This document shows, piece by piece, positions 8,069-38,100 of a stretch of 64,000 nt of DNA. Under the pieces are notes generated by a model, which saw only the letters and a program-made list of their open reading frames with translations, searched no databases and was not told the DNA's origin. The stretch covers positions 186,001 to 250,000 of the forward strand of contig JAKLJG010000003.1 in the NCBI GenBank assembly GCA_023151255.1. The letters run 5' to 3'. The translations under genes and the position numbers were made by a program. The stretch comes from Cyclobacteriaceae bacterium (GTDB lineage: Bacteria; Bacteroidota; Bacteroidia; Cytophagales; Cyclobacteriaceae). Positions within the stretch are counted from its first letter, which is position 1. Each line of letters opens with the position of its first letter.

Positions 8069-9841
8069 TTGGAAAAAGAACAGGTAAGCAGCGGCAACAT
8101 CATTGACTTTAAGGTACTCAGGCGCCTGATGCAATTTGTGCGCCCATATAAATCGCGATTTTATTTTCTGGTTTTCCTCACGCTGGCTGTAGGCGTGCTG
8201 TCGCCCCTGCGGCCGCTGCTCATTCAACACACACTGGATAATGAGGTAGCCTCCGGTGATTATAACGGAATGGTGTGGATGATGGGCATTCTTTTGTTTC
8301 TGCTGCTGGCACAGTCAGTTCTTCAATATGTACACACCTACCTTTCCGGTTGGATGGGCCAGCAGGTTATACGCGACATCCGTACAAAGTTATACCAGCA
8401 CCTGGTTCATCTGCGGCTCCGTTTTTTTGATAAAACGCCCATCGGCCGGTTGGTTACCCGCACCATTTCGGATGTAGAGACTCTTGCCGATGTTTTTAGC
8501 GAAGGGCTTGCTGCCATGGTGAGCGACCTGCTGCAGCTAATTTTTATACTTGCATTTATGTTTTATCAAGACTGGCGGCTGGCCCTGCTTAGCCTGGCCA
8601 CCTTGCCGTTGTTACTTATTTCCACGTATATCTTCAAAGAAAAAATTAAAGTGGCATTTAACGATGTACGCAATGCGGTGGCGAACCTTAACACGTTCGT
8701 GCAGGAACATATCACCGGGATGAATGTCGTTCAGATCTTTGCCAGCGAAAAGCGCGAGTTTGAAAAGTTCAAAGCCATTAATGAAGAGCACAAGCAGGCT
8801 AACCTGCGCTCAGTACTATATTATTCCATCTACTTTCCGGTGGCTGAAATCATTGCTGCAGCAGGTATTGGCTTGCTGGTATGGTACGGAGCCAAAGGGG
8901 CAATCAATTTCGAAGAAACGGGCATTACCATAGGTAAACTTATAGCCTTTATCATGTACATCCAGATGTTCTTCCGGCCTATCCGCATGATAGCCGACCG
9001 CTATAATACCTTGCAGATGGGTATTGTCAGCTCTTCACGCATCATCAACCTGCTGGATAACAAGGAGCATGTGCAGGAAACCGGAACCTACAAACCCGAA
9101 CACCTTGATGGCCGGGTGGAGTTTGACCAGGTGTGGTTTGCGTATAACGATGATCAGTACGTTCTTAAAGACATTAGTTTTACAGTAAAGCCCGGTGAGA
9201 CAATTGCATTGGTGGGCGCAACCGGAGCAGGAAAATCGTCTATCATTAATTTGCTTAATCGGTTTTATGAAATCAACAAAGGCTCCATACGGATAGATGG
9301 TAAAGATATCCGCTTGTATGATTTAGGGAGTTTGCGTAGAAATATTGGGGTGGTGTTGCAGGATGTATTTCTTTTTTCCGATACCATTTTCAATAACATT
9401 ACGCTGGGTAATACCGAAGTAACCGAAGATATGGTGTGGCACGCGGCCGAGCTGGTTGGGGCAAGAAAATTTATTGAACGATTGCCGGGGCAATTCAACT
9501 ATAATGTGATGGAGCGGGGTGCTACGTTATCAGTGGGGCAACGCCAACTCATCTCGTTTATTCGTGCGATGGTGTACGATCCAAAGATTCTGATACTCGA
9601 TGAAGCCACTTCTTCGGTTGACAGTGAAACAGAAGAGATGATACAGCAGGCGATAGATAAGATGATGAAAGGACGCACCTCTATTGTCATCGCCCACCGG
9701 CTTTCCACCATCCAGCGGGCCGATAAAATTCTGGTGCTTGACCACGGCCACATCATCGAGTCGGGCCGGCACGAAGAACTTCTTCAACACCAGGGCGCAT
9801 ACGCCCAACTGCATAAAATGCAGTATAAAGAGATTGCCTGA
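8069..9841 (+). CDS. ABC exporter half-transporter, MdlB/YheH-like
   Basis: 590 residues starting at a TTG three bases after the truA stop. Six membrane segments occupy residues 25-320, followed by an ATPase domain: Walker A GATGAGKS near 382, signature LSVGQRQL near 486, Walker B ILILDEATSSVD near 507 and the switch IAHRLSTI near 540. The signature LSVGQ and intact DE pair are typical of the MdlB/YheH/TM288 half of heterodimeric exporters. The matching MdlA-like half lies at 10601-12418 on the other strand. Substrate unknown; such pumps export lipids or drugs. Confidence 0.92.
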   Translation: MEKEQVSSGNIIDFKVLRRLMQFVRPYKSRFYFLVFLTLAVGVLSPLRPLLIQHTLDNEVASGDYNGMVWMMGILLFLLLAQSVLQYVHTYLSGWMGQQVIRDIRTKLYQHLVHLRLRFFDKTPIGRLVTRTISDVETLADVFSEGLAAMVSDLLQLIFILAFMFYQDWRLALLSLATLPLLLISTYIFKEKIKVAFNDVRNAVANLNTFVQEHITGMNVVQIFASEKREFEKFKAINEEHKQANLRSVLYYSIYFPVAEIIAAAGIGLLVWYGAKGAINFEETGITIGKLIAFIMYIQMFFRPIRMIADRYNTLQMGIVSSSRIINLLDNKEHVQETGTYKPEHLDGRVEFDQVWFAYNDDQYVLKDISFTVKPGETIALVGATGAGKSSIINLLNRFYEINKGSIRIDGKDIRLYDLGSLRRNIGVVLQDVFLFSDTIFNNITLGNTEVTEDMVWHAAELVGARKFIERLPGQFNYNVMERGATLSVGQRQLISFIRAMVYDPKILILDEATSSVDSETEEMIQQAIDKMMKGRTSIVIAHRLSTIQRADKILVLDHGHIIESGRHEELLQHQGAYAQLHKMQYKEIA

Positions 9842-10613: not shown

Positions 10614-12418
10614 ATCGTGTTCCCCTCGCTAACCTGCGCTTCATCGCCAAGGACTTGCTTTTCATACAGTTCGCGGTACACACCGTTGTTCTTTAAAAGT
10701 GTTTCGTGTGTGCCCTGCTCAACAATACGGCCATCAACCAGCACGATGATTTTATTAGCCAGTTTGGCTGAAGAAACCCGGTGCGAAACAATAACGGTGG
10801 TACGGTCCTTCATAATCCGCTTCAGGCTGTTGAGAATGGTGTTCTCTGTTTTTGTGTCAACGGCTGAAAGGGCATCATCCAGAATGAGGATGCGCGGCTC
10901 GTGAACAATGGCCCGCGCAATGCTTACGCGCTGCTTCTGCCCGCCCGAAAGGGTAATGCCCCGCTCGCCCACACGGGTATCAAGGCCGTGTGGAAATGCC
11001 AGAATGTTTTGGTACACATCGGCATCTTGGGCTGCCTGAATAATTTGTTCTTCACTGAGTTGTTTGGCGCCACCAAAAGCAATGTTGTTACGGATGCTTT
11101 CGCTGAACAGAAATACATCCTGAGGAACATAGCCAATCTGGCTTCGCAAACTCGTCAGATCATAATCAGCAATCGGAATATCATCAATTCTGATTTCGCC
11201 TTCGCGAACGTCATACAGGCGTGTAATCAGATTGGAAACGGTGCTTTTACCTGAGCCGGTTGTGCCGATAATGGCCAGCGATTCACCGGGGTTTATCACA
11301 AACGAAACATCGGTTAATGCTTTTATGCCTGTGTCAGGGTACGTAAAACTAACATGGTCAAATTCCACTTTACCTTTTATCTCACGCTGCAGCTTTTTTA
11401 CCGAAAAAATGGTGGGCTGTGTTTTTAAAAATTCATTTATACGTTTCTGGCTTGCTTCGGCCCGCTGCACCAGGCTGCTGGTGTATCCCAATGAAGTAAC
11501 CGGCCAGGTAAGCAGGTTAACATAAATGATAAACTCGGCAATATGGCCAAACGATAAATTTCCGTTAATAACTTCCGTGCTGCCTGCGTAAACCGTGAGA
11601 ATGGTGCTCAGCCCGATTAGTCCCATGATTAGTGGAAAAAAAAGCGCTTGTACACGCGTGAGCCGGAGCGATTGGGCCTTGTAATGATCACTGGCTTTTT
11701 CAAAACTGGCTATCGATTCTGCTTCGCGATTAAATGATTTAAGCACCCGAATGCCGCTGAAGGCCTCCTGCACAAACGTTGATAACCGTGATTGACTTTG
11801 CTGAATTCGCTCCGAACGTCTCTCAATTGTGTTGTTAACCAGGTAAATACTCAGCGACAACAACGGAAGCGGTATAAGGGCATACCAGGTAAGTTTGGCG
11901 CTGATGGTAAACATAACCGGAATTAAGATGAGGAACAGGGTAATTAGTTGCAGTCCGTACATGATGGCGGGTCCCAGGTACATTCGCACACGGCTTACAT
12001 CTTCCGAAATACGGTTCATCAGATCACCCGTGTTATTCTTTCTGTAAAAACTTAATGGCAATGCCTGGTAATGTGTAAAGATCTCATTCTTCAGATCGAA
12101 CTCAATCAATCGCGACATGACAATTAAGGTTTGCCTGACGAGATAAAGAAAAAATCCGCGCAGCAGGGCCATCAATAAAATTAATCCTGCATACAGCAGG
12201 ATGCCCTGTGCAAAAATTCCGTAAAAATTTTCCTGCAGTGAAAGATTGGCAAATGACCGGTAAATGCGAATGTTTTCAATAACCAAATCGATAGCATGCC
12301 TTACCAGTTGGGCCGGAATAATCTGGAAAATGTTTGAAATAATCACGAACACGATACCCCACAATAAGTGATACTTGTATTTGAGCAGGTATTTATTGAG
12401 GTATTTGAGTTCTTTCAT
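10601..12418 (-). CDS. ABC exporter half-transporter, MdlA/YheI-like (degenerate site)
   Basis: 605 residues. Membrane segments cover about 15-330. The ATPase domain has Walker A GTTGSGKST near 385, signature LSGGQKQR near 488, Walker B ILILDDALSAVD near 507 and switch VSHRVSS near 540. In Walker B the catalytic Glu is replaced by Asp (LDDALS), as in the MdlA/YheI/TM287 half of heterodimeric exporters that carry one non-hydrolysing site. This pairs naturally with the gene at 8069-9841. It is separated from the divergent dehydrogenase gene by about 160 bases. Confidence 0.92.
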   Translation of the reverse strand: MKELKYLNKYLLKYKYHLLWGIVFVIISNIFQIIPAQLVRHAIDLVIENIRIYRSFANLSLQENFYGIFAQGILLYAGLILLMALLRGFFLYLVRQTLIVMSRLIEFDLKNEIFTHYQALPLSFYRKNNTGDLMNRISEDVSRVRMYLGPAIMYGLQLITLFLILIPVMFTISAKLTWYALIPLPLLSLSIYLVNNTIERRSERIQQSQSRLSTFVQEAFSGIRVLKSFNREAESIASFEKASDHYKAQSLRLTRVQALFFPLIMGLIGLSTILTVYAGSTEVINGNLSFGHIAEFIIYVNLLTWPVTSLGYTSSLVQRAEASQKRINEFLKTQPTIFSVKKLQREIKGKVEFDHVSFTYPDTGIKALTDVSFVINPGESLAIIGTTGSGKSTVSNLITRLYDVREGEIRIDDIPIADYDLTSLRSQIGYVPQDVFLFSESIRNNIAFGGAKQLSEEQIIQAAQDADVYQNILAFPHGLDTRVGERGITLSGGQKQRVSIARAIVHEPRILILDDALSAVDTKTENTILNSLKRIMKDRTTVIVSHRVSSAKLANKIIVLVDGRIVEQGTHETLLKNNGVYRELYEKQVLGDEAQVSEGNTIQNT

Positions 12419-32099: not shown

Positions 32100-33563
32100 T
32101 CAGAGTCCCTCGCGCCCAAGGTTGCGCACTCCGGCTGCCCAATACAACAGGGCTTTTTGTTTTTCATATTCGGCCAGCAACTTAGCCCATTTGGTTTGAG
32201 CCTGCAGCAGGTATTCAAGTTGAATATTGATTTTAAACAGATCACTTTCGCCATTCTCAAAATTTAAAAGTTCGGCCTGTAACAGGCGTTCATAATTTTC
32301 GACCATGGCTTGTTGGTTGGTGATGATGGTATTAGTGGCCATAAGTGAATTGTAGGTAGCCCGTATGGAGTTGACTACTTCGCGCTCGGCAAGGCCCCGT
32401 TCAAATTGGGTAGCATTGATTTTCAGTTTTACCTGGGCCAGCCGGGCCCTTTCTTTACGGAGAAACAGGGGCATACTAAAATCCAATCCGAATTTATAGT
32501 CTTCACCGTTTGGCACATTCCAGTTCCATTGTGGATCAAATGGTTGATTGAGCCAGTAGTAGTTCAGGTCGAGTCGTGGCTTAAGGTATTCGGCTGCGAG
32601 CCTGCGGCTTACATCCAATTGCATAAGGGTTATGGAGAGTTTGCGCAAGTCGGGATGGTTTTGACGAGCCAGGTCTGCCAGTTCTTGAAGTTCGGTCCCT
32701 GTCATAATCAGCATTTCTTTTTCAGGAACTGGCACCCATTGCAGATTAATTGAAGCGGGCTGGCCTACGCTATCCCATAAGTAGGTGCTTAATTGTACGC
32801 CAGCATTTTTGAAACTGAGAAGAGCCTCTTGTTGCTGAATCAGGCGGTTTTGCCAGGTTATTTTTGCCTGTACTGAATCAATGGGTGCATTCTCGCCAAG
32901 TTCAACATTTAGTTTGGTTCGTCTAAAGATCTCCTGTGCAACCACAACTCCACGGTTCATCAGTCGAAAATTGTAATAACTGTAAAACCAGTTCCAGTAA
33001 TCGTAAGCCGCATCCAGCATCAATTTGTTAATCATTTTAACCTGCTCGGCTTCTGTTAAACTTTTGAAAAGCTCGGCTTGTCGTAAGGCAGCCCTTCGAT
33101 CATCGGTTATCAGCCCCCTGCCCAGGGGTACTGAAAGGCCGGCATAAAATTGCCGGTAGTTAAACTGGTTGGAGATGTACCGCTCGGGGTTCAGAAATTC
33201 TCCGAGGTTTTTTTCCATTCCAATTTTCGGATCAACAGGAAAAACCGCGTTAAACGTAATTGATCCATTGAAAACAGAATAGTATTCTTTATCCGAGAAA
33301 TTTTTTGTCAGATAAGTAATCTCAGCCTTTGGGTCGAAATTCCCCCGCGCAAGGCGTATCTCTTGTTTGGCTACATCGCTTAACAATCCCGCTTGCCGGG
33401 CTACCGGGTGGTAGCGCGTTACCAGTACATAAAAGTTTTCGATGGTGAGCACTTTTGCCGTATCTGGAATGCGAAAAAGTGTATCACTGGGTGTTTGTCC
33501 CCGGGCTGAGGTCAAAACACCTACCACGATAATGAAGAACCAATTCCGATTACTTCTCTTCAT
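32100..33563 (-). CDS. TolC-family outer-membrane channel of the ABC export operon
   Basis: 487 residues from the ATG ending at 33563 (MKRSNRNWFFIIVVGVLTS), which gives a proper signal peptide ending ARGQ; longer upstream readings lack one. The mature protein has the long paired helices of the OEP family, e.g. LSDVAKQEIRLARGNFDPKA and LNYYWL. It begins inside the last codons of the hlyD gene (14-base overlap), the last gene of the tetR-ABC-hlyD-tolC operon. Confidence 0.87.
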   Translation of the reverse strand: MKRSNRNWFFIIVVGVLTSARGQTPSDTLFRIPDTAKVLTIENFYVLVTRYHPVARQAGLLSDVAKQEIRLARGNFDPKAEITYLTKNFSDKEYYSVFNGSITFNAVFPVDPKIGMEKNLGEFLNPERYISNQFNYRQFYAGLSVPLGRGLITDDRRAALRQAELFKSLTEAEQVKMINKLMLDAAYDYWNWFYSYYNFRLMNRGVVVAQEIFRRTKLNVELGENAPIDSVQAKITWQNRLIQQQEALLSFKNAGVQLSTYLWDSVGQPASINLQWVPVPEKEMLIMTGTELQELADLARQNHPDLRKLSITLMQLDVSRRLAAEYLKPRLDLNYYWLNQPFDPQWNWNVPNGEDYKFGLDFSMPLFLRKERARLAQVKLKINATQFERGLAEREVVNSIRATYNSLMATNTIITNQQAMVENYERLLQAELLNFENGESDLFKINIQLEYLLQAQTKWAKLLAEYEKQKALLYWAAGVRNLGREGL

Positions 33564-34854
33564 CCTTTTGTGTATTAACCGGAACTTGTTTTTTCTGTAG
33601 CACCTCATCAAGCGGCTCTTCATACAAACTGGGCGGGAAGCCGTTAAGTTGCCGCCATATTTCGTACCACACCGGTACATCATCAAGCATTACCCACCCC
33701 TTAATGCCTGAGCCCAGGCGAAGTTGTTTTGGCCACGCTATATCGGTGGAATCAGGCACCACCAGAATACGAAACTCACCCGGTTTAGAATTTACATAAT
33801 CAATAACCTTAACAGTTCCGCCAAATGTTCCAACCGAAACACTGGGCCAGCCGGAAAACTGGATGGCAGGCCAGCCGTCAAAAATGATGCGCACCTTGCG
33901 CCCTTTGCTTACCAGCGGTACATCCATGGCGCGTATATACATTTCAGCGGCCATATCGGATGTGGCCAGTGGCATAATGGTACACACGGCTTCGCCTTCT
34001 TTAATGGTTTCGCCAATACCGGCTTTCATGGCCTTAACCACCACGCCATCCTGGGGTGCAATGATCTGATACTGCTGGTTTCGGATTTCCATGTTAGCAA
34101 ATTCGTTGCGCAGTTTAGCCAGGTCGGCCTGTGTTTCAAAAATCTCGGCCTCGGTATTGCTCCGGTCTGATTCGGCCTTGCTGATTTTATCAAGGTATTC
34201 TGCCTGAACGCGATCGAGTTCAATCTGTACATTGAGGTATTCCGCCTGGGCATTTTGGTATTTGTATTCAATTTCCTGGAACTTGGTTAGCGGTATGTTG
34301 CCGGCTTCAAAAAGTTTTTTATTTCGTTGAAATTGGTTTTCCATGTTCATGAAACGCACCCGCTCGGCTTCCAGCTTGGCTTTTGTCTGCTCTACTTTAT
34401 TGGCAAGTGCCAATTGCAAAGCATTGATCTGACGCGATAGGGCCTGAGCCTTTTCGGTTTTTGCGGCTACACTTTTCTCTTTGGCGTTAAGTTGCTCAGT
34501 CAATCGCTTCAACAGTTCCGGGTCAAAGAATTTTTCACGCACCTCACTGAGCGTGATGATGGTATCACCCTTGTCTACGTACTCACCTTCCTGCACGTGC
34601 CATTGTTGGATTCGACCGGCAATAGCGGTCTCTACGGTTTGTGGCCGGTTACCCGGATTAAAGGCTGTAACTTTACCGGTGCCGCGTATGTTTTGTTGCC
34701 ACGGAACAAACAGGATGATGAGGAACAGTACCCCAATAACAGCAAGGATACGGGCCAGCACCTTGCCGGCTTTAGGTACTTTAATGGCACGCAGCGAGTA
34801 CAGTTTTTCCTGCTCAATGATTTTATTAACCCGGTTTGGCGAGAGGTTCAGCAT
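33550..34854 (-). CDS. HlyD-family periplasmic adaptor
   Basis: 434 residues. One membrane helix near 35-53 (ILAVIGVLFLIILFVPW), lipoyl half-motifs AGRIQQWHVQEGEYVDKGD near 79-97 and IIAPQDGVVVKAMKAGIGE, and a long coiled-coil hairpin between them, as in type I secretion or microcin-export adaptors. It joins the inner-membrane ABC protein to the TolC-like protein. Two bases separate it from the ABC gene. Confidence 0.9.
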   Translation of the reverse strand: MLNLSPNRVNKIIEQEKLYSLRAIKVPKAGKVLARILAVIGVLFLIILFVPWQQNIRGTGKVTAFNPGNRPQTVETAIAGRIQQWHVQEGEYVDKGDTIITLSEVREKFFDPELLKRLTEQLNAKEKSVAAKTEKAQALSRQINALQLALANKVEQTKAKLEAERVRFMNMENQFQRNKKLFEAGNIPLTKFQEIEYKYQNAQAEYLNVQIELDRVQAEYLDKISKAESDRSNTEAEIFETQADLAKLRNEFANMEIRNQQYQIIAPQDGVVVKAMKAGIGETIKEGEAVCTIMPLATSDMAAEMYIRAMDVPLVSKGRKVRIIFDGWPAIQFSGWPSVSVGTFGGTVKVIDYVNSKPGEFRILVVPDSTDIAWPKQLRLGSGIKGWVMLDDVPVWYEIWRQLNGFPPSLYEEPLDEVLQKKQVPVNTQKDEEK

Positions 34855-34856
34855 AG

Positions 34857-37034
34857 TTAATCGAGGTATCGGTTTATAATCCCGTCTTTAAGCAGTTCCT
34901 CAAATTTTCCTTCGGCTTCAATCAACCCGTCATTTAAAACAATCACCCGGTCGCAGGCAGCCATAATCAGCGGGTCGTTCGAAACGGCCAGCACGGTCCA
35001 TTTGTTTTTGCGGTCAACCAAGCACTGAATTAATTCAATTTTGGCGGCTCGTTTTAGTCCGGTAAAGAAATCGTTCAGGATTACCAATTCAGGTTTTTTG
35101 GCAAGGCAACGAGCTAAAATAAGCCGATGAACTGCGGTGTTGGAAAGATTTTTGCCTCCGCTGGTCAGGTGGGTGTTTAAGCCATCGGGTAGCCGGTTTA
35201 TTTCCTCTGTGAGACCCACCATCTTAATGGCGTCTATGGCATCTTCAACGCTTTCCATGGGTTTGCCAACGGTAACGTTGTCTAGAATAGTTCCGTCAAA
35301 AATATCTTCCTGCGAAATGTTTTTCCCGATTTTATTGCGCAGGTGCGTGAGGTCCAGGTCGCGTATTGAATAATTATTTATCGATACAGCGCCTTCAAAA
35401 TCCGTGTAGATGCCAGAGATAATGTTCATTAACGTAGTCTTCCCAGATCCGCCCGGCCCGGAAATGCAAATATGTTCGCCAGGTTTGATGTTGAGGTCAA
35501 TTCCCTTCAGCATATAGTCGTATTGACCCGGGTACTTGTATTTAAGTTTGTTTACCTGAATGCTATATCCCAAACCTTGCTGATGGCTCGGGAAATCCAG
35601 GCCGCCAACCCGCTCAAGCGGGATATCGGTTACATGCGCAACCTTATCAACCGCTGTAAGCAAATCGTAGATGACATCCATATACATCACAATTTTTTCT
35701 ACAGAAGAGAGCAACAGGATGATGATGACTTCGGATGCGACAAACTGCCCTAACGTAATTTGGCGATCAACGACTAATATGGTGCCCACGATGAGCAGGC
35801 CTCCGGTAACCAGCGCTTTGAACAGCAGGATAAAACTAAATTGGCTGATTAACACCTGGAAATGGATCTTCCGATACTTCAGGTAATTGTTTACAGTATA
35901 GTCGGTTTTATTAATGGGTAAATCGGTTGTGCCGGCTAACTTAAAGGAGTTGATCGCACGCGCCAGTTCTTCAAGCCAGTGAACCACTTTATACTTGTAT
36001 TTGGATTCCTCGATGGATGAGCGCAAGCCTTTGGGCCCGGTGGCTGTAAATAAAATAGCCAGCAGGCTTAATAACCCCACGCTAAAGAAAACGAAGAACG
36101 GGTGATACAACGACAGCAGAATTAAGCCAAAAATGATTTGAACGATACCGGCTGTAAAATCAATTAACAGTTTTGGCAGGCCTTTTTGAATGGTGATGAT
36201 GTCAAAGAACCTGTTTACAAGTTCCGGTGCATAATTGCTGATGATGGCCTCGGCCCTGAGCCGCGGAATGCGAAAGGCAAATTCCAAGGCTGCTTTGGTA
36301 AAAATTCTTCGCTGAAGAAATTCAACAAGGCTTATCTGAATAAGTTGCAAAACACCGCCTACAATAACACCTAAAATAACTATGCCGATGAGCACGTAAA
36401 CGGAGCTGAAAAAAACTCCGCCCGAGATGAGTTCAATGGTTGCCTGAATACCCAATGGTAAAACCAGGCTTATTAAACCGGCTATCAGCGCGTAGAAGAA
36501 AATGTAGTTAATCTGGCTGCGTTCAGCATGGAGCAAACGGAACAACCGGGTTACCGGATTAAGTCGTTTCCCTCCGGCCGTTTCATCAAGACCGTAGTCG
36601 CTCACCAGGCTTTCTTGCGGAAAGAGAACAAAAAACAGTACCTCGTTGCCCGAATGCGAAAACCATGGCAAAGACGTAGTAAAGGCTGTTTGTTCCCAGC
36701 CTTTATCATGAAGTTGTGTAATAGTGCGGTTGTTACCGGCCGGTTGGATGAGTGCGGGTATTAGTCCTTTTTCTGTTTTGGAAAAAGCCAACACATACTG
36801 CTCTTCTTTTTCGAGGAAAGATGCAAATTCGCCCGGGCTCAGCGTGTATTGCAACATCATCAGTTGCATTTTGCTGGCCGCCTCAAACAAATCCTGCTTG
36901 AATTCATCAAATTCAGCCTCGCTGTAAGTTCGGTTGTTAATTTCGGTAAAGCGAAGGCTTTCCGGATCATACTCATGGCCAAGTTGTAGCGCTGCTTCCC
37001 GGAGAATTCGAACAATATGATGGTTCCGTAACAT
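34857..37034 (-). CDS. type I secretion-like ABC protein with degenerate ATPase motifs
   Basis: 725 residues. About 160 N-terminal residues could be a worn C39-like domain, but no catalytic Cys/His pattern is visible. Membrane helices cover about 165-440. The ATPase domain keeps Walker A (GPGGSGKTT near 525) and a Q-loop (NISQEDIFDGTI). The other motifs are changed: signature LSGGQ reads LSNTA (near 629), Walker B reads VILNDFF so Asp is Asn and the catalytic Glu is Asp (near 650), D-loop Asp is Lys (TGLK) and the switch His is Asn (VSNDP near 683). As a homodimer it would have no standard hydrolysis site. Substrate unknown; no small precursor peptide gene was found next to it. Confidence 0.88.
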   Translation of the reverse strand: MLRNHHIVRILREAALQLGHEYDPESLRFTEINNRTYSEAEFDEFKQDLFEAASKMQLMMLQYTLSPGEFASFLEKEEQYVLAFSKTEKGLIPALIQPAGNNRTITQLHDKGWEQTAFTTSLPWFSHSGNEVLFFVLFPQESLVSDYGLDETAGGKRLNPVTRLFRLLHAERSQINYIFFYALIAGLISLVLPLGIQATIELISGGVFFSSVYVLIGIVILGVIVGGVLQLIQISLVEFLQRRIFTKAALEFAFRIPRLRAEAIISNYAPELVNRFFDIITIQKGLPKLLIDFTAGIVQIIFGLILLSLYHPFFVFFSVGLLSLLAILFTATGPKGLRSSIEESKYKYKVVHWLEELARAINSFKLAGTTDLPINKTDYTVNNYLKYRKIHFQVLISQFSFILLFKALVTGGLLIVGTILVVDRQITLGQFVASEVIIILLLSSVEKIVMYMDVIYDLLTAVDKVAHVTDIPLERVGGLDFPSHQQGLGYSIQVNKLKYKYPGQYDYMLKGIDLNIKPGEHICISGPGGSGKTTLMNIISGIYTDFEGAVSINNYSIRDLDLTHLRNKIGKNISQEDIFDGTILDNVTVGKPMESVEDAIDAIKMVGLTEEINRLPDGLNTHLTSGGKNLSNTAVHRLILARCLAKKPELVILNDFFTGLKRAAKIELIQCLVDRKNKWTVLAVSNDPLIMAACDRVIVLNDGLIEAEGKFEELLKDGIINRYLD

Positions 37035-37042
37035 AGCGGGGA

Positions 37043-37720
37043 TCAGGGTTGAATAACTTTATTTAATATCAAACCGATGAAATCATTCAGTTGCTGATAA
37101 TGCTTCTTCGGATTGAATTGAATTTCAGTCAGCGAAGGCAGGTGCTCGGCATAAAATAATTGATGATTGGCCGATAATATCAATGTGCTTACCAATGCAT
37201 GCGGATACGGAAATGCTGGATTGATTTGACGGATAAGACCCGCTATTTTTTTGCAAACCGATTTAAACGGAAGAAATACTCCCTCCTGATTGTCTTTATC
37301 CACCTGTTTGGTCAGGTAGGTCTTTTCAAACTCAGCCATCATGATGCGATTGAGAGCCTGGCCATCAATACCGTTGGAATAAAGATCGCTTTTCTTTTCT
37401 GAAGTAAGCAGGTTAATGTAAATCTTAAGTTTTTCCCGGGGATCATTAATGTTGGTTGTGAAATAATCAAACTGATATTCAAGCCAGGTCCAGTACCAGT
37501 CAATCAGGTAAAGCAGTAGCCTGTGCTTGTTTTCAAAATACCGGTATACCGAAGCCTCCGTTGAACCGATTTCCTCAGCCAGTTTTTTAAAAGTGAAGTT
37601 CTCGAAGCCTAAACGGTCGATTAACCGTATCCCTTCGGTAACAATGCGCCACCCCAAAGCCGATTGTTGCGGATCTTTGAGGTAAAGGGAGGCATTCAGC
37701 CGAATTGATAGTGAAACCAT
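37043..37720 (-). CDS. TetR/AcrR-family transcriptional regulator
   Basis: 225 residues from the ATG ending at 37720; an in-frame start at 37744 would include the palindrome and is less likely. The helix-turn-helix is RLGFENFTFKKLAEEIG and STEASVYRYFENKHRLL, residues about 37-68. The rest is a helical ligand domain with aromatic residues. It heads the operon with the ABC, HlyD and TolC genes (8 bases to the ABC start) and probably represses it in response to a ligand or substrate. Confidence 0.9.
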   Translation of the reverse strand: MVSLSIRLNASLYLKDPQQSALGWRIVTEGIRLIDRLGFENFTFKKLAEEIGSTEASVYRYFENKHRLLLYLIDWYWTWLEYQFDYFTTNINDPREKLKIYINLLTSEKKSDLYSNGIDGQALNRIMMAEFEKTYLTKQVDKDNQEGVFLPFKSVCKKIAGLIRQINPAFPYPHALVSTLILSANHQLFYAEHLPSLTEIQFNPKKHYQQLNDFIGLILNKVIQP

Positions 37721-37741: not shown

Positions 37742-37791
37742 CAAAAAACGGTAAAACTACATGAAGGTTTAAGGGAGAATTGAAAAAATTT

Positions 37792-38100
37792 TTAAATGTG
37801 CTGATTCAGGGCATTTCGTAGGTTCATCAGAGGTACTACACCGGCTTGCCGCCACAGGATTTTACCTGCTTTAAACAGCATCAGCGTAGGTACTCCCTGT
37901 ACCTGGTATTGGCCGGCCAATGCCGGGTTCCGGTCAACGTCTATCTTTATTACCTTAACCTTGCCGCTGAATTCCCGTGCAATTTCCTCAACGATGGGGG
38001 CAATCATTTTGCAGGGCCCGCACCAATCGGCATAAAAATCAACCAATACCGGTTGTTCACCGGCAATCAAATCAGCAAAAGATGGTTTTGAGGTACTCAT
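37792..38100 (-). CDS. trxA: thioredoxin
   Basis: 102 residues. Active site WCGPC at 26-30, the cis-Pro segment VQGVPTLMLF near 67-76 and the start VLVDFYADW identify a classical cytoplasmic thioredoxin. No signal peptide. Separate from the tetR operon by about 50 bases. Confidence 0.95.
   Translation of the reverse strand: MSTSKPSFADLIAGEQPVLVDFYADWCGPCKMIAPIVEEIAREFSGKVKVIKIDVDRNPALAGQYQVQGVPTLMLFKAGKILWRQAGVVPLMNLRNALNQHI

Follow-up and report, generated by a model that had tools for sequence, protein, structure and literature searches.

The gene at positions 34857..37034 (minus strand) of the window, which is the whole 64,000-nucleotide stretch of the Cyclobacteriaceae contig JAKLJG010000003.1 analysed here, encodes a 725-residue pseudo-exporter of the ATP-binding cassette (ABC) type. 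Its family probably represents an ABC exporter that no longer depends on ATP hydrolysis and serves as the inner-membrane part of a HlyD/TolC pump, similar to SbmA in mechanism but separate in origin. The open reading frame (ORF) is intact, starts with ATG and contains no internal stop, in agreement with an earlier note on this DNA that had described a frame open over 725 codons. A single chain carries Pfam matches above cut-off to ABC_membrane (PF00664, residues 177–444) and ABC_tran (PF00005, residues 509–653). Three parts, all on the minus strand, were delimited from the Pfam matches, the motifs, the relatives and an AlphaFold2 (AF2) model: an N-terminal domain (residues 1–155; 36570..37034), a membrane domain (residues 159–475; 35610..36560), and a degenerate nucleotide-binding domain (NBD), or pseudo-ATPase domain (residues 490–725; 34860..35567). 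The membrane domain is the sole part retained by relatives that lack an NBD.

The motifs of the NBD are unequally preserved. Walker A, or P-loop (GPGGSGKTT, residues 526–534; 35433..35459), and Q575 of the Q-loop are kept. The signature reads LSNTA in place of LSGGQ (residues 630–634; 35133..35147), and the Walker B position reads LVILND (residues 650–655; 35070..35087), where ILND (652–655) replaces LDE by the changes Asp to Asn and Glu to Asp. The D-loop Asp is Lys661 and the switch His is Asn686 (34977..34979). Each of these losses had been claimed before and was confirmed on rereading. The claim that a homodimer would have no normal hydrolysis site is likewise supported, since the residues of the signature, of Walker B and of the switch are missing from both of its composite sites. 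In the same genome, the four exporters that match best all have the P-loop and DE or DD, as well as Asp in the D-loop and His at the switch; three of them read LSGGQ and one LSVGQ.

Of 291 genomes drawn across the order, 224 contain a match to the window protein (E ≤ 1e-60), as do 101 of 395 genomes of a phylum sample (E ≤ 1e-40), where at least two matches (L099 and L100) are canonical exporters. At 21 family loci taken from genome contigs (L011–L031; 39–91% identity), hlyD is present in all 21, tolC in 19 and tetR in 8; tolC is missing from L013, where the contig ends, and none was found at L023. HlyD and TolC are the constant partners of the family, and TetR is not. All 21 relatives deviate from the canonical motifs, the least decayed being L023, which still has Asp in Walker B and His at the switch. 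A wider alignment comprised 135 distinct relatives, 106 with an NBD and 29 without; it left out the query itself (L001), canonical or unrelated ABC loci (L002–L010, L032–L036, L099, L100) and the broken or partial copies L127 and L130. In L127 (genome G161), the ABC gene is broken into two overlapping pieces and hlyD into three, each a separate ORF. The NBD-bearing rows divide into 95 degenerate rows of the main clade, 8 deep-branching rows and 3 from sphingomonad plasmids. Long and short NBD-bearing forms occur, and the short forms lack the N-terminal domain, as do the NBD-less members.

Five features were scored in these rows: the P-loop GK[ST], the second signature Gly, the Walker B Asp, the catalytic Glu and the switch His. 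Among the 95 main-clade rows, 25 keep none, 58 keep one, 10 keep two, 2 keep three (L023 and L098) and none keeps all five, so no normal homologue was found within the clade. A local mutation or a sequencing artefact was rejected as an explanation because the losses are common to relatives. The clade-wide losses also support the view that selection maintains an ATPase-dead protein. The alignment proposed in the earlier note supports its expectation in part. Signature loss is general, but LSNTA itself is confined to near relatives; likewise, ILND or SND is typical of the long Cytophagales forms, but other branches read ED, EN, EE or EH. The deep-branching rows are far better preserved, with all five features in six, four in one and three in one, and only these relatives retain DE together with the His. 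A stricter pattern that includes an LS[GT]GQ-like signature is matched by L101 alone of the eight, and the D-loop position is Glu, not Asp, in seven. Their neighbours include hlyD in 7/8 (not seen at L109), tolC in 6/8 and tetR in 0/8.

The P-loop appears from the alignment to be the last motif lost. The second signature Gly is kept in 4/95 degenerate rows, compared with 93/95 for Gly531 and 94/95 for Lys532; L120 and the three sphingomonad plasmid rows have lost the Walker A Lys. The NBD of the window protein would be a pseudo-ATPase whose retained P-loop probably still binds nucleotide and whose role is dimerisation, structural or regulatory in nature. A related but doubtful reading is that the NBDs, unable to hydrolyse ATP, hold it stably and gate a channel, either passive or coupled to the adaptor, as a sensor, not a motor; it is compatible with hydrolysis-independent transport, and both can hold. 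The retention of Gly531 and Lys532 speaks for such a switch, as do the regular ILND/SND replacements of the long Cytophagales forms, which are unlike random decay, and the NBD-docking coupling helix 2 region, which in long forms is as conserved as the remaining membrane domain. However, 25/95 degenerate rows have Asn, Asp or His at residue 533 instead of the usual Ser or Thr, which should weaken Mg-ATP binding, the P-loop Lys is lost in four rows and the whole domain in 29, and a switch supplies no energy by itself.

The NBD-less relatives (29 distinct rows, 329–374 aa) end just past the membrane domain, in most cases shortly beyond a VTDL linker. The start of hlyD overlaps the end of the gene in 20 of them and lies 34–118 nt downstream in the other 9, so close that no space is left for an NBD behind these genes. 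A frameshifted or split NBD following the gene was rejected on the same ground, the hlyD ORF starting −26 to +118 nt from the stop. Five NBD-less proteins were compared with Pfam, and PF00664 scored above cut-off in all five, PF00005 in none and PF05992 in none. At the six NBD-less loci fetched with long flanks (L091–L096), hlyD and then tolC follow in every case. By ORF length, at least 45 of the 291 genomes in the order sample encode an NBD-less copy. They belong to the group codes f11, f13 and f18; the f23 members came from the phylum sample. No full-length family member was found in 14 of 16 NBD-less genomes (E ≤ 1e-60; up to 37 candidates scored per genome). The genomes G073 and G139 encode a full-length degenerate member together with one or two NBD-less members, paralogues that may have taken on separate roles.

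A maximum-likelihood tree of the membrane domain was calculated from 105 rows and 317 columns, after removal of rows with more than 86% identity to a kept row or fewer than 250 filled positions (135 to 105 rows; NBD-less 29 to 24). The 24 NBD-less rows form one clade (support 100/99) within a 27-row group (100/100) that also contains the degenerate-NBD rows L154, L156 and L066. Because the NBD-less clade is nested among degenerate-NBD relatives, the NBD most likely lost catalysis first, with a single deletion of the domain following later. The choice of the rows with intact DE as the outgroup imposes their basal place in this tree; a quick tree with canonical exporters as the outgroup also placed them at the family base, with long-branch warnings. 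The canonical outgroups joined long branches in the quick tree and were omitted from the main tree. The exact placement of the long branches L101, L110 and the sphingomonads is unsure.

The membrane domain is under stronger constraint than the NBD. It is the more conserved of the two in 28/28 pairs of family members from eight genomes; for a canonical exporter of the same eight genomes, it is the more conserved in 7/28 pairs, with 3 ties and the reverse in 18. This control set omitted the G119 match (L172, 37% identity) and four others that were likewise weak. Against the nearest relative, the ratio of nonsynonymous to synonymous substitution rates (dN/dS) is 0.014 for the membrane domain and 0.042 for the NBD; dS was high, saturated or not computable in most pairs. 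The NBD in the branch of the window protein thus appears to be still selected, less than the membrane domain, and the pattern fits a structural or regulatory role of the NBD better than that of a motor. The strongest conservation in the membrane domain includes the motifs NRFFD, YHPFF and GQFVASE, which could be interfaces. Together with the absence of a visible energy source, these motifs would suit an alternative in which the protein is no longer a transporter and its membrane domain is merely an anchor or assembly platform for HlyD/TolC. That alternative is unlikely, because strong conservation of membrane-domain positions, including the acids in transmembrane helix 6 (TM6), extends across the long, short and NBD-less forms, and dN/dS is low.

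Several conserved acidic residues lie in TM2 and TM6. Glu238 (TM2; 36321..36323) is invariant in the 29 NBD-less and 95 degenerate rows. Glu435 (TM6; 35730..35732) is Glu in 29/29 NBD-less rows and in 97% of the 95 degenerate rows, and is Ile or Leu in most of the 8 canonical outgroup rows. E238, E435, E446 and D457 are missing from most canonical outgroup rows; D292 is conserved in the family as well. Acid gain in the helices of NBD-less proteins was considered as a signature of proton coupling and rejected, since gains above 0.4 in frequency sit at 360–379; the partial gain of Glu241 stays below that threshold. Position 396 (TM5, numbering of the window protein) is Lys or Arg in 29/29 NBD-less rows and mostly Ile, Leu or Val in other forms; Lys/Arg396 and Glu241 are possible new gate contacts in the NBD-less proteins.

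In ABC exporters, the turn between TM4 and TM5 carries a helix that docks into the partner NBD. In the full-length AF2 model (mean predicted local distance difference test score, pLDDT, 78; below 50 at 362–366), this turn lies at about 366–371 and the TM2/TM3 turn at 258–261. The coupling helix 2 region (residues 355–371, end of TM4 and TM4/TM5 cytoplasmic turn; 35922..35972) had been noticed before the entropy comparison, which was thus not blind; the model topology that names it came afterwards. When 19 NBD-less rows were compared with 44 long NBD-bearing ones, two sets of similar diversity (mean identity 0.62 and 0.64), in 299 windows of 17 residues, the windows with the largest entropy gain started at 356–363. 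The gain of region 355–371 was 0.84 bits versus −0.05 for the rest and −0.34 for the first coupling helix. Over all 29 NBD-less rows, the entropy of this region is 2.08 versus 0.96 elsewhere in the membrane domain, a ratio of 2.15, compared with 1.04 in long (n = 46), 1.35 in short (n = 49) and 1.05 in deep-branching forms (n = 8). The region is the stretch of largest gain of the NBD-less rows in both comparisons. The short forms, too, reach their highest absolute variability within this region, which suggests that loosening of the docking region began, or arose separately, without NBD loss.

This region bears on the possibility that a stand-alone ATPase subunit serves the NBD-less proteins in trans, and perhaps the window protein. 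When 18 NBD-less genomes were searched with the window NBD, no family-like orphan NBD was found among the matches listed. The best matches scored 90.7–114.2 bits, the level of unrelated exporters (about 91–101 bits in the window genome), and lay in ORFs of at least 590 aa in 17 of the 18 genomes; in G101, the top score is shared by an ORF of 343 aa at the start of a contig and one of 612 aa. These matches and the coupling helix 2 region, the most variable stretch of the NBD-less rows, argue, without proof, against an ATPase in trans. On the other side, split genes for the transmembrane domain and the NBD are reported in the YddA family (in the available part of PMC13316013), the first coupling helix is unrelaxed in NBD-less rows, the docking region varies in short NBD-bearing forms as well, and ABC ORFs of 323–343 aa occur among the NBD matches of G101 and G087 (one genus; 27–28% identity). 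On balance, a subunit in trans is very unlikely.

In a heterodimer with one degenerate site, each site draws its signature from the partner chain. On such general knowledge of ABC proteins, pairing would bring no rescue, because the window protein gives neither a catalytic set nor a signature. Other ABC genes were seen near family genes only at L091 (282 aa), at L104 (953 aa), which we take to be UvrA-like, and as a fragment at L054. A heterodimer of the window protein with an active ABC half-transporter encoded elsewhere, like TmrAB or TM287/288, is the least likely arrangement of all: at least four canonical exporters are encoded in the same genome and degenerate sites are described as common in non-homodimeric exporters (in the part of PMC7756269 available), but no second half-transporter adjoins the family gene in the loci read (flanks of about 1.5–5 kb), signature and Walker B are both lost, so that neither composite site would be normal, and NBD-less relatives exist.

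Three mechanisms had been offered in the earlier note. A partner ATPase is now the least likely of them, because some relatives have no NBD and because the window protein would provide no usable signature. We infer that ATP hydrolysis is absent and that transport continues. The ancestor would have been an ATP-driven type I secretion or PCAT-like ABC exporter working with HlyD/TolC, whose ATPase died; transport by family members would then be independent of ATP hydrolysis, and in one clade of relatives the NBD would have been deleted, with the membrane domain alone working with HlyD and TolC. Because the composite sites are dead and a heterodimer would bring no rescue, energy would come from elsewhere, with ion coupling favoured, or transport would be passive. 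Quite possibly an ion gradient drives transport via the conserved TM2/TM6 acids, by analogy with SbmA. The family may, somewhat tentatively, be a second, independent conversion of an ABC exporter to an ion-gradient-driven transporter, with its stages still living (active-looking, dead and without a motor).

Several observations weigh against hydrolysis-independent, ion-driven transport. The Walker A Lys remains in 94/95 degenerate rows, which leaves room for nucleotide binding and perhaps for slow turnover by an unusual site. The window protein and the NBD-less proteins belong to different branches, and one need not speak for the other. The membrane-domain dN/dS is 0.05–0.21 in NBD-less proteins versus 0.01–0.09 in NBD-bearing proteins, where dS is often saturated. 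The short NBD-bearing forms are also most variable at about 360–368, so variability of the docking region is not exclusive to NBD loss, and NBD-less rows exceed the short ones by little (0.30 in the top window). The conserved acids were present before the decay, since the deep-branching, active-looking relatives mostly have them; they therefore do not point specifically to proton coupling and would be at most a pre-adaptation. Outside 356–379, the sole partial acid gain of the NBD-less proteins is that of Glu241 (13/29 versus 7/95). No substrate was identified.

If the conversion to an ion-gradient-driven transporter holds, the family would constitute a class of inner-membrane component for tripartite HlyD/TolC pumps beside the ABC, resistance-nodulation-division (RND) and major facilitator superfamily (MFS) transporters. 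One gene family next to hlyD and tolC spans the range from an active-looking through a dead to a missing ATPase. The series makes the ATP-free drive of an ABC exporter membrane domain, and the evolution of that switch, directly testable.

The best match of the full model in the Protein Data Bank is PCAT1 (9azl, E 2.2e-35), and the highest TM-score (a measure of fold similarity) among the matches listed is that of the HlyB/HlyD complex (8dck, 0.70). The first 155 residues, modelled alone, gave a pLDDT of 87, and their best fold match is the PCAT1 peptidase domain (7n87; TM-score 0.54, probability 1.00), with an E value of only 2.8e-3. The fold search with this domain gave nothing at E 0.001, and a profile search against solved structures gave nothing significant. 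The domain contains no Cys and is probably a decayed C39-like peptidase domain, judging from the model. A domain of 160 residues that had earlier been called unassigned is now most like the C39 peptidase fold, with the E value weak.

The genes around the exporter are on the same strand. The earlier note had named tetR, hlyD and tolC as operon mates, and all three were identified by Pfam. The HlyD-family periplasmic adaptor (PF13437 and others, 434 aa) is encoded at 33550..34854 (−), and the TolC-family outer-membrane protein (PF02321) at 32100..33686 (−), where the listed ORF overlaps hlyD and the true start is probably downstream. The TetR-family regulator (PF00440) lies at 37043..37720 (−), with 225 aa from the ATG at 37720; the listed ORF begins at 37744. 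Directly upstream of tetR is a thioredoxin gene (37792–38100, −). Thioredoxin-like genes are also found near the operon in L016, L018, L019 and L094, one of the four being NBD-less, and this proximity reflects either old synteny or a functional link. Two canonical ABC exporters lie about 25 kb away on the same contig, at about 8114–9787 (+) and 10673–12220 (−); one has LSVGQ for LSGGQ and the other has Asp at the position of the catalytic Glu.

Family members also occur on records titled plasmid. L160, L162 and L164, on plasmids of Novosphingobium, Croceicoccus and Sphingomonas, are distant relatives on a long branch that are accompanied by hlyD and tolC and have lost the Walker A Lys. L161, on the Riemerella anatipestifer plasmid NZ_CP081938.1, is a degenerate member with hlyD and tolC amid murB, fabG and rsmI annotations, a stretch of housekeeping genes on a record titled plasmid. 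Five plasmid members bear ordinary annotations such as 'ABC transporter ATP-binding protein'.

Three kinds of known system resemble the family. The type I secretion and PCAT proteins (HlyB, LssB, PCAT1) likewise fuse ABC_membrane to ABC_tran and have HlyD and TolC in the operon, and both the window model and its N-terminal domain find their best fold matches among them. In contrast, the window protein has lost the signature, the Walker B DE and the switch His, its C39-like domain has no Cys, and no linked cargo gene was seen: across 46 loci, any one neighbour family recurs in 5 at most, and these are mostly close kin. Its TIGR03375 score is 174.9 against a cut-off of 693.1, and the best 25 of 171 matched NCBIfam families all score below their cut-offs.

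MsRv1273c/72c is reportedly a heterodimeric exporter with one degenerate site. A chain with degenerate catalytic motifs is also described for TmrAB, TM287/288 and BmrCD (in the available parts of PMC7756269 and PMC8277102), and the window protein resembles such chains. However, no partner gene stands beside the family gene in the loci read, a distant one being possible, and the LSNTA of the window protein gives a partner site no usable signature.

The NBD-less relatives consist of an ABC-exporter-type membrane domain alone, as SbmA/BacA does. To our knowledge, SbmA is the one known case of an ABC exporter membrane domain that works without its motor. Its membrane domain is described as proton-driven, and descent of SbmA/BacA from a full-length ABC exporter by NBD loss has been proposed (available part of PMC13316013); SbmA/BacA is described as found only in Pseudomonadota in what was available of PMC12003926, whereas the present family occurs mainly in Bacteroidota in the samples used. 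The window protein also differs by its pseudo-NBD, and PF05992 is matched neither by it nor by the five NBD-less proteins. The NBD-less proteins, at 329–374 aa, leave little room for a TM0 domain, and their genes precede hlyD and tolC. Relatives with dead NBDs survive in this family, but the intermediates in SbmA evolution are inferred. SbmA/BacA has lost its coupling helices, whereas the NBD-less rows are variable at the helix 2 region with helix 1 unrelaxed. SbmA/BacA uses proton drive with a glutamate ladder; here there are conserved acids only (E238, E435, E446, D292, D457), which do not imply coupling. The window protein does not qualify as a functional type I secretion ABC protein, because its ATPase motifs fail, or as a member of the SbmA family, because it carries an NBD and does not match PF05992, yet it may work like SbmA. 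Among the matches listed from open-licence PMC texts, by titles and the starts of abstracts, no Bacteroidota ABC exporter with a dead or missing NBD beside HlyD/TolC was found. Degenerate sites in heterodimers and the NBD-free SbmA are known already; the new element is a pseudo-ABC tripartite export system.

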